Assembly (NCBI GenBank): GCA_018266735.1
Contig: JAFDZT010000001.1
Coordinates: 248,001 to 312,000, forward strand
Length of the DNA stretch: 64,000 nucleotides
Direction of reading: 5' to 3'
Source: Bacteroidota bacterium
Lineage (GTDB): Bacteria; Bacteroidota; Ignavibacteria; Kapaibacteriales; Kapaibacteriaceae
This document shows positions 20,454 to 51,250 of the stretch, piece by piece; positions within the stretch are counted from its first letter, which is position 1; the number at the start of each line of letters is the position of its first letter. A program made the position numbers and the translations under genes. Under the pieces are notes generated by a model. It was not told the origin of the DNA. It worked only from the letters and a program-made list of their open reading frames with translations, and did no database searches.

Positions 20454-20876
20454 ATGTCCCTGCTGAATACAAGAACAGCCCGCTCGATGATCTACCTGGT
20501 ATGCATCGGCGGGCTGTTGGTTTGTAATGCATGGATCGTGATGGTGTTATGGAACACCGTGCTGTGGCCGATGACGCCAAGCAACGAACAACTGAACTTC
20601 CTGGAAGGCGCCGGACTCACGGCATTCGCCTACGTTATCGTTTTCACCGTCCGGTATGGCAGGAAGGCCGCAAAAACTCCCGCCGCCACAGCCGATGCGC
20701 ATCAGCGCACACATGCTCCCTCTCACCATACAGGGATGCCTCAACACTCGGAGTTAAGTGCCCTTTGCTCGTCCATGACGGCGGAGGAAAAGGCCCGACT
20801 CAAGCATGAGTTGGCGGCAAGAGCGGGGTGTAGGGAAGAGATCGGAAGAGAATACAAGATCAAGAATACAGAATGA
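20454..20876 (+). CDS. Small membrane protein whose C-terminus is supplied by a repeat
   Basis: 140 residues. Two hydrophobic segments (about 13-35 and 48-66, IYLVCIGGLLVCNAWIVMVL and LTAFAYVIVFTVRYG) suggest an inner-membrane protein with a cytoplasmic, His/Ala-rich tail. Near residue 100 there is a short conserved-looking stretch MTAEEKARLKHELAAR. No named domain is recognised. The final 14 codons and the stop lie inside the left arm of the inverted repeat at 20833-20969, so the tail EEIGREYKIKNTE appears to be repeat-derived and the ancestral stop may have been lost. It follows the sigma factor by 12 bases, so an operon is likely. Confidence 0.6.
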   Translation: MSLLNTRTARSMIYLVCIGGLLVCNAWIVMVLWNTVLWPMTPSNEQLNFLEGAGLTAFAYVIVFTVRYGRKAAKTPAATADAHQRTHAPSHHTGMPQHSELSALCSSMTAEEKARLKHELAARAGCREEIGREYKIKNTE

Positions 20877-20969
20877 AGGATCGATCCTTCTCGTCGTGAT
20901 TCTTGATCACCTGATTTCTGCTTTGAATTCTGTATTCTTGACCCCGTATTCTTCTTCCGATCTCTTCCC
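20833..20969. repeat. Large imperfect inverted repeat, dispersed-repeat copy A
   Basis: The left arm 20833-20874 is the near-perfect reverse complement of the right arm 20927-20969 (about 42 bases, few mismatches; both contain ATTCTGTATTCTTGA and CTTCCGATCTCTTCCC in the right-arm sense). The 52-base loop holds a perfect 16-base palindrome GAAGGATCGATCCTTC at 20875-20890 and a small GTGAT...ATCAC hairpin. The left arm covers the end of the upstream small membrane-protein gene and the right arm stops about 10 bases before the mscL start. The arm sequence recurs at 21807-21831 and, more loosely, at 51188-51247. It would fold into a strong hairpin when transcribed. Confidence 0.85.
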
Positions 20970-21374: not shown

Positions 21375-22658
21375 TCAGTCCATGCGTTGCGCATAGTACG
21401 TGCGATGTCCGTCGCCCACACGTACGATGAACACCACTCCGTGATGATCGCTTGCGGGGAAGGAGAGCGCATGTCGTAGCTCTTCCGGATCGCGCGGCCA
21501 GCCTCGCTTCTTGAATTCCGTATGCTTGTTCCATTCGAGCTCTCGAATGCGAACCTGCATGCGCTTTTCGCTCACACCCTCATCAACAGCAACGACTCGG
21601 AAACGCGTCCACCACACCGATGGCCCGGGATCGATCGACGCAAGACCATAGGCGATCTGCGGATCGATAGGACGTATGCCATGGTCGCGATATACAGCAG
21701 TGAGTAACCCCGAGGCGATAAGGGTGGCGTGGGGCTCGAAGAGCACTTCGTGGGACACGGAGTGAGACACGTTGTGCGATTCTGTATTGACAGATCCTTT
21801 CATTGCATTCTGTATTCTTGATCCTGTATTCGCATCTCCCATTATCCTCCTCACCTCCTTCCCCTCCACCAGCGTCGCAGACACGTCGTACGATGTGCGG
21901 GTTCGAAGAACGAGCTCTTTGCATTCGTTGCCGCTGCCAATGTAGTCGCGACAAAGTCCGCGCATAAGTGACGCGGGCACATCATCGGCCGGACCGAGCT
22001 TGATGCCCACGGCGCGCAGGAATGGTATGCGTGGATGCGTTGTGAGCAAGGCAAGGGGTGGATCGTGATGCGCGATCGAGCGGGTGCGCTTGCCCGATGG
22101 TGTCCGTCGCGACGGGTCGGCCCAGAGTCCATCCGCCTGCTCCATGGCCTGTTCCCATGCATCGCACGGAACGGCGGCGTTGATCACGTCGACGTTGTGG
22201 ATCCCGGCACGACGGAGATTCCCTTGCGCCAAGGCAGCAACGATCGGATCTGCTTCAAAGCTCACCACACGCCCAACACGCGCTGCGATGGCTTGTGTGT
22301 CGAGACCAGACCCCGTGCAGACCTCCACCACCATGGTGCAGCCATCAAAGAGTTCGGCATGCACGCGTGCGATGTCGGGATGCGTTGCCTGTTCGGCACC
22401 CACCGACGTGAACAGCCATGCCCCTTGAGCCTTCCCAAGCCGTTCAGCCTTTTGCGCACCAACACAGAGATCGATGAGCGTTGCCGCATAAGCTCTGTGA
22501 TCTTCCGGCAACACGGCCCGCACGGCCTCAACGCCCTTGGGTGTGACCAGCGCATCGGAGCGTGTGGCATGGGTGCGCAGGAGCGACGTCAGCGTCGACA
22601 CCAATCCTGCAAGTTCTTGAGTTCGAAGGAGTTCTAGAAGGTGCGGCATTGTTTCCAT
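21375..22658 (-). CDS. SAM-dependent methyltransferase with THUMP-like C-terminal domain and inserted repeat peptide
   Basis: 427 residues. An N-terminal helical domain (1-90) precedes a Rossmann core with motif I VVEVCTGSGLDTQAIAARV near residue 110-130, SFEADPIVAALAQGNL near 135, and GLWADPSRRTPSGKR near 180, the pattern of the class I methyltransferase / THUMP-like family found in Bacteroidota. The C-terminal domain shows GKEVRRI near 265 and LFEPHATLIASGLL near 305. Between these lie about 30 residues (including NTGSRIQN and SHNVSHSVSHEV) encoded by dispersed-repeat copy B, so the domain seems to carry an in-frame insertion. Function on RNA or another substrate is not proven. An alternative start is ATG at 22649. 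Confidence 0.82.
   Translation of the reverse strand: METMPHLLELLRTQELAGLVSTLTSLLRTHATRSDALVTPKGVEAVRAVLPEDHRAYAATLIDLCVGAQKAERLGKAQGAWLFTSVGAEQATHPDIARVHAELFDGCTMVVEVCTGSGLDTQAIAARVGRVVSFEADPIVAALAQGNLRRAGIHNVDVINAAVPCDAWEQAMEQADGLWADPSRRTPSGKRTRSIAHHDPPLALLTTHPRIPFLRAVGIKLGPADDVPASLMRGLCRDYIGSGNECKELVLRTRTSYDVSATLVEGKEVRRIMGDANTGSRIQNAMKGSVNTESHNVSHSVSHEVLFEPHATLIASGLLTAVYRDHGIRPIDPQIAYGLASIDPGPSVWWTRFRVVAVDEGVSEKRMQVRIRELEWNKHTEFKKRGWPRDPEELRHALSFPASDHHGVVFIVRVGDGHRTYYAQRMD
21746..21840. repeat. Dispersed-repeat copy B, inside the methyltransferase gene
   Basis: The core ATTCTGTATTCTTGATCCTG (beginning 21807) and the nearby GATCCTTTCATT and CATCTCCC blocks match the arms of copy A. The left part has 12-base tandem units of the type GTGGGACACGGA/GTGAGACACGTT (from about 21750), also seen in copy C. 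The whole element is in frame with the methyltransferase on the minus strand and contains no stop in that frame. Confidence 0.75.
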
Positions 22659-38309: not shown

Positions 38310-40318
38310 AGTATTCCCTCCTTGCCGCCTTCCTTGTCCTTTCGTTTGCACCTGTCCATGCACAGGACCATCCACCGTTGCTCTTTGGTGTTGCAGGTGG
38401 GTATGCACAGACCATTCATACAGCATCGAACCTCACATGCTTGAGTGATCCGGCCTGTCCGCCCTATGATGGCGGAAGTGGTGGAGGGTGGTATGGTGCT
38501 GCAACCATGTCGTGGCGCGCCTCTGAGCATCTTGGTCTTGCCGTTGCGCTTCGCATGTTGCCCGTGAACGTGACGATGACGGAGACCGTTGCCGGTCCGC
38601 CCGTGCGAAACGAGTCGGGCGATGTTGTCACCCTGCAACGCGAGCATACGCTCACGTACAAGGCAACGCAGTTCGCCCTCGACATCGGTCCGGAATACAC
38701 CCTTGGTGTGTTGCGATTCTCACTTGGTGCAAGCGCAGCATTGCAACGCTCTGCAACGTGGTCGAGTGCAGCACGCATCGTGTCGCCCAACAACATCACC
38801 TTCGGCGACTTTGCACGCGACACTACGTTCTATCCTGAGCAAGCTGTACCGAATGCATCGTCGTTCCTCATCGGTGCCAATGCCATGATCGGCTTGGATC
38901 TTCCGATCTCGCATGCTTTGCGATTGTCGCCCGAGGTTCGTTACATCTACACCTTCACGCCGTTGCAGACCGGTGCAACATGGCATCAGCAGAACATCGT
39001 TGCCGGCATTGGTATTCGCGTTGCCTTGGATAGACCTTCCAACGAGCCCGAGCCGGAACCGGAGATCGTTGTGCCACCGCCACCACCTCCGGTGGTCGTT
39101 GCAGAAGTGGTTGTACCTCCACCGCCACCGCCACCTCCACCGCCACCACCGCCGCCGCCACCTCCGCCGCCACCTCCACCACCCGTGGTTGTCACTCCGC
39201 ACATTCAGATCATCGATCCGGTGACGGAGAAGCCATTGCGTTCGATCATGATCGCCACGACGGAGCAGGACGAAACGTTCCCGCTGTTGCCGGTGGTGTT
39301 CTTCGATCTCAATGCAAGTCGCATTCCGGCGAGATACAAGCAGTATGCGAGCACGGAGCAGTTCAGTGCCGACAGCATCGTGCCGAGCGCGCTTCCGATG
39401 CACTATGAGGTGTTGAATGTGATCGGTTCGCGGATGGCCACGTCGACGGGGACGCTTCGTCTTCGTGGATTTGCCGACGTGGGCACGGAGGGTGGATCGT
39501 GTGCACTCGCCATGGAGCGTGCAAAGGCCGTTCGAACATTCTTGACAGCGGCATGGAAGGTTGCACCACAACGCATCGTGATCGACTCACCGAGTTGCAC
39601 ACAGGCAATGCAAACCGTGGCGACAACCGATCAAGGTCATGCAGAGAACAGTCGTGTCGAGATCGCCTGTTCCGATCCTGCCGTGATGTCGCCCACTCTT
39701 CGCACACGATTCACATCGCGTGTGGGTACCACGCCTCTCGATCCGCAGGTAAAGCTCGACAGTATTCCGGCCACGTCCACATGGCAATTGCGTGTGACGA
39801 ATGGTGGAGAGCTTCTGCATCAGGAACGTGGCACCGGTCCGGCCACGGTGAAGTGGCATATCGACGAAGCAACACGTCAACGCATCGCACTAGGCAAGCC
39901 CATCGAGATCGAAGCAACGGTCGACACGATCTCCGTCAAGGCAACGGTTCCTGTTGGGGCCGACGTGACGAACACGTGGGCGAATCGCCTCTCGCTCTCG
40001 CTCTTCAGCATCAGCAGTGCAGAGATCAGTCCACGCGACAACGAGGCCATCAAAGTGTTCGCCGCAAAGCTCAAGAAGAATGAGAGTCTTGTTGTACGAG
40101 GCTTCACCGATAACCTCGGTGGTTCGGACTTCAACAAGTCGCTCAGCAAGCGTCGTGCACAGAACGTTGCAACGGCCATTCGGGCCGTCCGTCCCGATGT
40201 CCGCATCGACGTGGTGGAAGGTCTCGGCAACACCACACAGCCGTTCGGACTCACGTCGTATACCTTACCCGAAGAACGCTTCCTCAGTCGTACTGTACAA
40301 GTGGAGATCAAACGGTAA
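38306..40318 (+). CDS. Outer-membrane barrel with polyproline linker and OmpA-like domain(s)
   Basis: 670 residues, GTG start overlapping the upstream stop. Signal peptide MKYSLLAAFLVLSFAPVHAQ, then a predicted beta barrel to about residue 245. Residues 256-292 are a near-pure proline run broken by VVVAEVVV and ending PPVVVTPHIQI. Then come two OmpA-type modules: about 320-455 (RLRGFADVGTEGG, then NSRVEIACSD) and about 560-670 (GFTDNLGGSDFNKSLSKRRA, RTVQVEIKR). The C-terminal module keeps the Asp/Arg peptidoglycan-binding pattern. It probably anchors or exports the giant Ig-repeat protein encoded just before it, as a barrel partner; this role is inference. Confidence 0.8.
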   Translation: MKYSLLAAFLVLSFAPVHAQDHPPLLFGVAGGYAQTIHTASNLTCLSDPACPPYDGGSGGGWYGAATMSWRASEHLGLAVALRMLPVNVTMTETVAGPPVRNESGDVVTLQREHTLTYKATQFALDIGPEYTLGVLRFSLGASAALQRSATWSSAARIVSPNNITFGDFARDTTFYPEQAVPNASSFLIGANAMIGLDLPISHALRLSPEVRYIYTFTPLQTGATWHQQNIVAGIGIRVALDRPSNEPEPEPEIVVPPPPPPVVVAEVVVPPPPPPPPPPPPPPPPPPPPPPPVVVTPHIQIIDPVTEKPLRSIMIATTEQDETFPLLPVVFFDLNASRIPARYKQYASTEQFSADSIVPSALPMHYEVLNVIGSRMATSTGTLRLRGFADVGTEGGSCALAMERAKAVRTFLTAAWKVAPQRIVIDSPSCTQAMQTVATTDQGHAENSRVEIACSDPAVMSPTLRTRFTSRVGTTPLDPQVKLDSIPATSTWQLRVTNGGELLHQERGTGPATVKWHIDEATRQRIALGKPIEIEATVDTISVKATVPVGADVTNTWANRLSLSLFSISSAEISPRDNEAIKVFAAKLKKNESLVVRGFTDNLGGSDFNKSLSKRRAQNVATAIRAVRPDVRIDVVEGLGNTTQPFGLTSYTLPEERFLSRTVQVEIKR

Positions 40319-50287: not shown

Positions 50288-51157
50288 ATGTCCTTCCGTC
50301 TCGATGCCCTCTCCATCCTCCGCAGGCCCTTCCCGCGCGCCGAGTCGTCGTCGAGACGGTGGCTCAACGTGCTCGGCGTCAGCACCTTCGTCGCCCTCTT
50401 CCTCCTGGTCTTCGGTCCGTTCGGACTCAGCTCCACCTTCCCCAACCGCACGCTCATCATCGCCGGCTACGGTATCGTGACGGCCATCTGCATGGCCTTC
50501 CTCATCATCGTGCCGCCCTTCCTCCTTCCCAAGGCCTTTGCAGAGGAGCGGTGGACGGTTGGCAAGGAGATCTTGATGATGATGCTGACGATCTCGCTGA
50601 TCGGTGTGGGCAACACGGTGTATTCGTGGTGGGTGTTCGACTACGACCTTGGCCTGGAGCTCTTCCTCGTGTTCCAGGGTGTGACGTTGTTGGTGGGGAG
50701 CATTCCGGCATCGTTCATCGTCATCCTGCAGTATCAGCGGTATCAGTTGCTCTTCACGCGTGGTGCACGCGAGATCGAGTCGCACTTGCACATGCCCGTC
50801 GTACACGTGTCCGACGCCATCGTTCGTATCGAGGATGATGAAGGAAAGAACGGCATCGACATCGGCGTCGACGACCTCATTGTGATGTCGGCCGCGGACA
50901 ACTACGTGAATGTGATATGGCGGCAAGGAGGCAAGCGCACACAGCAGCTCTTGCGCACGAGTCTCAAGAGCATCGAGTCACGTCACACACTTCCGCCATC
51001 GTGGTTCCGCTGTCATCGAAGTCATATCGTCAACCTCAATGCCGTGGAGCATGTGCGCGGCAATGCACAAGGGTATCGGTTGCAGTGCGCGGAAGGTGTG
51101 GAGGTGGCTGTGGCGAGGAGTAAGAGCACGCAGCTAAGAAGCTTCGTGCGACACTAG
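50288..51157 (+). CDS. Membrane-bound LytTR-family transcription regulator
   Basis: 289 residues with four predicted membrane segments in the first 170 (for example VSTFVALFLLVFGPFGL, GIVTAICMAFLIIV, LFLVFQGVTLLVGSIPASF). The C-terminal 110 residues are a LytTR DNA-binding domain (IVMSAADNYVNVIW, LLRTSLKSIESRH, FRCHRSHIVNL, NAQGYRLQ). No receiver domain; membrane sensing directly coupled to DNA binding is common in Bacteroidota. It is divergent from the TonB receptor and may regulate it. The last codons (SFVRH) lie at the start of dispersed-repeat copy C, so the end of the protein may be repeat-derived. Confidence 0.87.
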   Translation: MSFRLDALSILRRPFPRAESSSRRWLNVLGVSTFVALFLLVFGPFGLSSTFPNRTLIIAGYGIVTAICMAFLIIVPPFLLPKAFAEERWTVGKEILMMMLTISLIGVGNTVYSWWVFDYDLGLELFLVFQGVTLLVGSIPASFIVILQYQRYQLLFTRGAREIESHLHMPVVHVSDAIVRIEDDEGKNGIDIGVDDLIVMSAADNYVNVIWRQGGKRTQQLLRTSLKSIESRHTLPPSWFRCHRSHIVNLNAVEHVRGNAQGYRLQCAEGVEVAVARSKSTQLRSFVRH

Positions 51158-51250
51158 TGTGCGACACGGAGTGCGAAACTGCGTGGTATTCTTGATTCCT
51201 TGATTCATAGATCGAATTCTGTATTCTGTATTCTGTATTCTGTATTCCTC
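51142..51250. repeat. Dispersed-repeat copy C with 12-mer and 7-mer tandem arrays
   Basis: It starts with CTTCGTGCGACAC, matching copy B (CTTCGTGGGACAC), followed by 12-13-base units GTGCGACACTAGT, GTGCGACACGGA and GTGCGAAACTGC (51146-51182), then TATTCTTGATTC and finally four exact tandem ATTCTGT heptamers plus a partial fifth (51216-51247). It lies between the convergent LytTR and GNAT genes and covers the LytTR stop codon. Confidence 0.75.

Follow-up and report, generated by a model that had tools for sequence, protein, structure and literature searches.

Within the reading frame of a gene for a SAM-dependent methyltransferase lies a stretch of short repeats, raising the question of what this DNA is and how a conserved protein gene comes to hold it. 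The initial annotation of the window, by which we mean the whole 64,000-nucleotide stretch of DNA analysed here, had described it as repeat DNA that inserts about 30 codons without loss of frame, much as Rickettsia palindromic elements (RPEs) do. The repeat proved real. In the window, ATTCTGTATTCT with at most one mismatch occurs 7 times against 0.12 expected, and across the whole 3.35 Mb genome the 7-mer pattern ATTCTGTATTCTTGAT with up to three mismatches has 147 matches against 3 for its reversed control, while a 12-mer pattern has 138 against 1. The frame is likewise kept, as the open reading frame (21375–22658, minus strand) runs unbroken across the whole repeat, and the limits first proposed (21746–21840) lie near those that we measured (Table 1). 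The reading that we favour, with a probability of roughly 0.78, is that this is dispersed composite short-tandem-repeat (satellite) DNA, which grew by slippage and survives in genes only where it is in frame and falls in a tolerant loop.

Table 1. Coordinates of the methyltransferase gene, its repeat modules and the other two repeat copies in the window.
Feature	Positions	Strand	Details
SAM-dependent methyltransferase, C-terminal THUMP-like domain	21375..22658	-	427 aa, intact ORF with the repeat inside
In-frame composite repeat, methyltransferase	about 21745..21831	-	~residues 276-304, ~29 codons
12-mer block, methyltransferase copy	21745..21778	-	+ strand GTGGGACACGGA GTGAGACACGTT GTGCGA; encodes SHNVSHSVSHEV
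7-mer block and spacer, methyltransferase copy	21779..21831	-	ATTCTGT/ATTCTTG types; encodes 18 residues
Second copy, palindromic	20833..20969	.	two facing 7-mer blocks, GGGAAGAGATCGGAAGA arms, strong hairpin, z -6.7
Third copy	51146..51250	+	outside called genes, directly 3′ of a gene end

Along the methyltransferase gene the modules run from a 7-mer block through a spacer to a 12-mer block. The 7-base block reads ATTCTGTATTG... and ATTCTGTATTCTTGATCCTGTATTC, and the 12-mer block comprises three 12-base units (GTGGGACACGGA, GTGAGACACGTT and GTGCGA...). The peptides NTGSRIQN and SHNVSHSVSH, which the initial annotation had assigned to one repeat, are indeed repeat-encoded and come from two different unit types, the 7-mer and the 12-mer, respectively. 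The C-terminal domain of the protein matches the THUMP-like profile PF18096 at a score slightly below the curated cut-off, and a solved structure of a homologue is available (3ll7).

We aligned 22 orthologues of the methyltransferase, drawn from its own family and order, and the sequence of the repeat segment is absent from all 22 of them, so the objection that it might be conserved ancestral sequence fails. The spacing between two invariant residues, E248 and H310, is 43–72 residues in the orthologues (median 46) and 61 in this methyltransferase, a net gain of 15 residues over the median. Because the repeat accounts for ~29 residues and the net gain is only 15, roughly half of it is added length and half stands in place of native linker, which corrects the reading as a plain 30-codon insertion. 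The repeat site is the stretch with the greatest length variation in the alignment, and the majority residue reaches a mean of 16% in the columns under the repeat compared with 54% elsewhere. On this alignment, the repeat is read as lengthening and replacing a hypervariable linker ahead of the conserved EPH motif and the C-terminal domain. The family-invariant residues are all retained, among them the DPxRR motif and, in the C-terminal domain, the KKR motif, so by this evidence the gene is not a pseudogene. The repeat is most likely a tolerated disordered loop with no function of its own; a single-sequence structure model of the protein (mean pLDDT 34.5) was too poor to show whether it is exposed.

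Beyond this gene, the genome holds the composite at dozens of loci, with its module order conserved: optional AAGTGAC heptamers, then GTGNGACACNNN 12-mers, an ATTCTTG-type spacer, ATTCTGT heptamers and a CTCTTCCGATT end. The 12-mer unit combines a conserved 9-base core with a variable triplet, and the encoded peptides have periods of 7 and 4 residues. The composite measures about 50–380 bp (repeat islands overall range from about 20 to 380 bp), and copies differ in length by whole 7- and 12-base units. A search of the window against Rfam returned no match. Among 59 relatives, the 7-mer pattern at up to one mismatch was absent or had one or two matches each; the composite was not found in the congener G001, where that pattern has 0 matches, and the 12-mer was found seven times in one other genus, represented by G002. 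Relatives do carry many tandem arrays with a constant 7-base period and differing sequence, consistent with an alternative in which every array grew by local slippage within its gene, starting from a short seed present by chance, with no dispersal between loci, and the cyclase loop motifs YRIG and LVTIDRG resemble repeat peptides and could have served as such seeds. This account is nevertheless very unlikely, because two unrelated unit types and a spacer recur in one order in unrelated genes and intergenically, and independent slippage would not yield a recurrent composite order.

The other two copies in the window differ in their symmetry. The second ends 9 bases ahead of mscL, whose product was identified as MscL, and also forms the final codons and the stop of the upstream 140-aa ORF (20454–20876). 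The third consists of a 12-mer block with one 13-base unit, a spacer and four to five ATTCTGT units. The palindromic structure of the second copy, the facing 7-mer blocks that also occur in copies at C13:24834 and C6:736294, the constancy of module order over dozens of loci and two Y1 transposase-like (Y1_Tnp) matches in the genome (C8:159603 and C5:39607) would all suit a genuine mobile element, palindromic and RPE- or MITE-like, that was moved by a transposase and later degraded to tandem repeats. However, inverted arms are present in some copies only and palindromy is sporadic: both the methyltransferase copy (folding z +0.52) and the copy at 51146–51250 are non-palindromic and carry no inverted repeats. 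Length variation by whole 7- and 12-base units also speaks against such an element, no target duplication was seen by eye at the one palindromic copy inspected (20833–20969), no empty site flanked by such a duplication turned up, and a search limited to the Y1 type identified no mobilising enzyme, the two Y1 transposase-like genes being at most candidates, also for a REP/BIME system with RAYT. We regard a degraded mobile element as possible but unlikely.

The palindromic copy also holds AGATCGGAAGAG, which equals the start of an Illumina adapter, in both arms (judged by eye), as might be seen if the repeat were a sequencing or assembly artefact. We rejected this explanation as almost certainly wrong, because the adapter-like motif varies at other loci: CTCTTCCGATT and CCTCTTCGGATC variants follow the heptamers at many sites, in places as tandem units of ~11 bases, and their flanks are not adapter. 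Adapter trimming at elements with AGATCGGAAGAG could cut reads and break assemblies there. Elsewhere in the window, positions 39115–39183 carry a low-complexity CCACCG-rich array with a 6- to 27-base period.

We surveyed about 428 kb around repeats (~13% of the genome), calling genes with a home-made hexamer-score ORF scorer. Many called genes fully enclose repeat islands, and module order is constant across unrelated genes. The peptides encoded by the methyltransferase repeat were looked for in this survey and are present in other proteins of the genome; in-frame hosts include class III cyclases, a DprE1-like oxidase, a GAF-GGDEF protein, a DUF2339 protein and two anti-sigma-like proteins. 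In the DprE1-like oxidase the repeat aligns to a DprE1 segment of about equal length, in the GAF-GGDEF protein it sits in the linker following a membrane segment, and the two anti-sigma-like proteins read the same DNA strand in another frame, yielding PQSV and not SHxV. In predicted lipoproteins at L110:6887-7642 (-), L110:8571-9386 (-) and L121:9250-10140 (-), the signal-peptide region is encoded by an AAGTGAC-type heptamer, read from its other strand as LSLVTCHLSLVT...FSGC, and here the repeat DNA apparently acts as a signal peptide.

About a dozen signalling cyclases hold the repeat, and in the class III cyclases conserved catalytic motifs flank it on both sides. It occupies two sites, loop 1 before the FRIGMHCGPV strand and loop 2 linking the ASELK helix to the RGxIDIKGKG strand. 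Across the paralogues, loop 1 is native, 12-mer-filled or 7-mer-filled, and loop 2 is native, holds the AAGTGAC-type module alone or holds the full composite with 0 to ~13 SHxV units. The paralogues thus present empty and filled sites side by side in one genome, and some 30 of them, ranging from native through half-filled to filled at the two fixed loops, offer a large natural test set. A dense cluster of TPR and class III cyclase genes lies on contig C7 at ~90–120 kb and 146–156 kb (G000; L111, L112 and L113). Class III cyclase matches number 32 in this genome compared with 0 in the congener G001 and two in G006, and many of the 32 have differing array lengths at the two catalytic-domain loops. 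Such a pattern could point to adaptive variable linkers, in which unit number tunes loop length or activity, or in which 7-base units, whose gain or loss shifts the frame, turn the C-terminal domain on or off. Yet non-coding DNA and unrelated proteins carry the same repeats, and perfect intragenic 7-mer runs, at two to three units, are short for phase variation; we consider this explanation quite improbable.

The strand on which coding copies are read is strongly biased. Six-frame stop analysis showed that one strand of the 7-mer encodes TEYRIQN in all three frames, and that the composite's opposite strand has a stop in every frame of the ATTCTTG and AAGTGAC types. When a heptamer has one stop-free strand and gives the same peptide in three frames, the phase in which it enters a gene does not matter. 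The stop-free strand is the sense strand in 28 of 29 intragenic islands, most of the 28 being in related cyclases, so that the independent gene families number ~7. Since the orientation of islands near gene 3′ ends is unbiased (20:16, p = 0.62), the strand bias is not an insertion bias, and on the same ratio we rejected a one-orientation placement of non-coding copies behind genes. An apparent exception to the open-strand rule is a coiled-coil gene, L124:5478-6548 (+), in which an AAGTGAC array runs in the stop-bearing direction and GTGAC is varied to GTTAC at units that otherwise read TGA.

Unit length differs between coding and non-coding arrays as well. The spacing of 12-mer cores is exactly 12 bases at 119 of 119 spacings in coding arrays and at 35 of 53 in non-coding ones, and a 13-base spacing occurs at none of the 119 and at 18 of the 53 (Fisher p = 6e-11), in a comparison that is partly circular because 13-base units tend to break an ORF and so place the array in the non-coding class. 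The gene calls, moreover, come from stretches picked for holding repeats, and the cyclase arrays are mutually related. The circularity is weaker for genes that are defined by homology on both sides of the repeat. Counted per array, a 13-base step appears in no coding array and in most non-coding or partial ones. The strand bias and these spacings are evidence for selection that would act on the reading frame.

If the repeat is dispersed satellite DNA, copies would reach new sites at short matches, either by recombination or by template switching. Junctions in unrelated genes have the short motifs GAAGAG, CACTTCG and CTTGTCAC in common (judged by eye), and in two cyclases a repeat-derived YRI occupies a conserved strand position where most paralogues show FRI. 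Invasion through short similarity fits this substitution and could explain the replacement of native loops. Arrays would then lengthen or shorten by slippage, and selection would purge copies that introduce a stop or a frameshift or that interfere with folding, such that the survivors would resemble loop insertions or loop replacements, with the repeat segment presumably translated and retained in the protein.

In another genus, different repeats fill the same methyltransferase and cyclase loops. The methyltransferase of G002 has IPIPIPI-TNTSTNASTNAST in the corresponding linker, and a cyclase of the same genome holds a related 12-mer, read in another frame, in loop 1 and a GDTTSDPL duplication in loop 2. 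In a further genome, G016, the CoaBC protein carries a TDGT array with a 12-base period between its Flavoprotein and DFP domains. Permissive loops have thus been filled repeatedly and apparently independently, the phenomenon being the family's and the sequences the lineage's. Because different repeats occupy the loops of orthologues across genera, it can be tested directly whether repeats give rise to new protein segments. That an active, family-wide process writes lineage-specific tandem repeats of tunable length into protein loops, and that these are used to diversify cyclases, is in our view rather improbable. Several further arrays were seen in these relatives: two G002 loci (L168 and L169) have very dense 7-base repeats (AATTCTG, AATTCTT, AATTCGC and TTCGTAA) whose period is fixed and whose sequence varies; in G006, a 28-base unit repeated ~14 times (L172:5522-5908) lies directly 3′ of the orthologous methyltransferase gene; and G001 has a CRISPR-like array with a 61-base period and a CACCCGCACACGCGGGGATGAACCG repeat (L166:8040-9169).

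In a limited literature search, made mostly without subscription papers, we found no report of a 7+12-base composite in the loops of conserved enzymes, although several known systems share some of its features. Cyanobacterial STRR heptamers and bacterial long simple sequence repeats have a 7-base period and are dispersed, and some form hairpins (PMC2670836, PMC4679880). The repeat described here resembles them in its constant 7-base period, its dispersal and its occasional hairpin-capable copies, and its 7-mer part falls within their definition (tandem 5–11-base units, mainly of 7, at many loci), whereas its 12-mer part falls outside. Those repeats are also mainly intergenic, in contrast to the composite of 7- and 12-base units that occupies loops here. 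The TAACTGA heptamers of Beggiatoaceae have stops in three frames on one strand, are open on the other and occur within ORFs in the reverse orientation only (PMC4679880), and thus share with our repeat a tandem 7-base unit with one open and one stopping strand. They lie mostly in intergenic DNA before start codons, and those within ORFs mostly encode the ends of proteins or belong to small hypothetical proteins (PMC4679880), unlike the repeat in this genome, which lies inside conserved enzyme domains and is joined to a 12-base unit.

PARCEL repeats are tandem coding repeats that have spread in genomes and been co-opted into proteins (PMC2996958), a likeness that extends to the spread within this genome and the uptake into proteins. 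They encode 25-residue amphipathic units that show dyad symmetry and lie in functionally unassigned ORFs, whereas TEYRIQN-like and SHxV-like peptides are found here in conserved enzymes, and we rejected membership because the peptide periods are 7 and 4 residues and not 25. RPEs and the Wolbachia palindromic elements are dispersed, lie in frame within unrelated genes and add an extra peptide in exposed parts of proteins (PMC3767692, PMC10969869). The present repeat is like them in that its dispersed in-frame copies reside within unrelated conserved genes without disrupting them, and to this extent the resemblance first proposed for the methyltransferase stands; its sites are, on the alignments, loops or linkers that in relatives are short and of variable length, and that may be exposed. 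The RPE label itself we rejected, because the methyltransferase copy is non-palindromic and the family has no fixed unit of ~100–150 bp with a conserved peptide: RPEs are palindromic units of that size grouped in families, whereas this composite is variable and non-palindromic, is built of tandem 7- and 12-base units and often replaces a native loop. In behaviour, RPEs are the closest known system, and the repeat family described here is apparently an independent case of repeat DNA residing in conserved protein genes.
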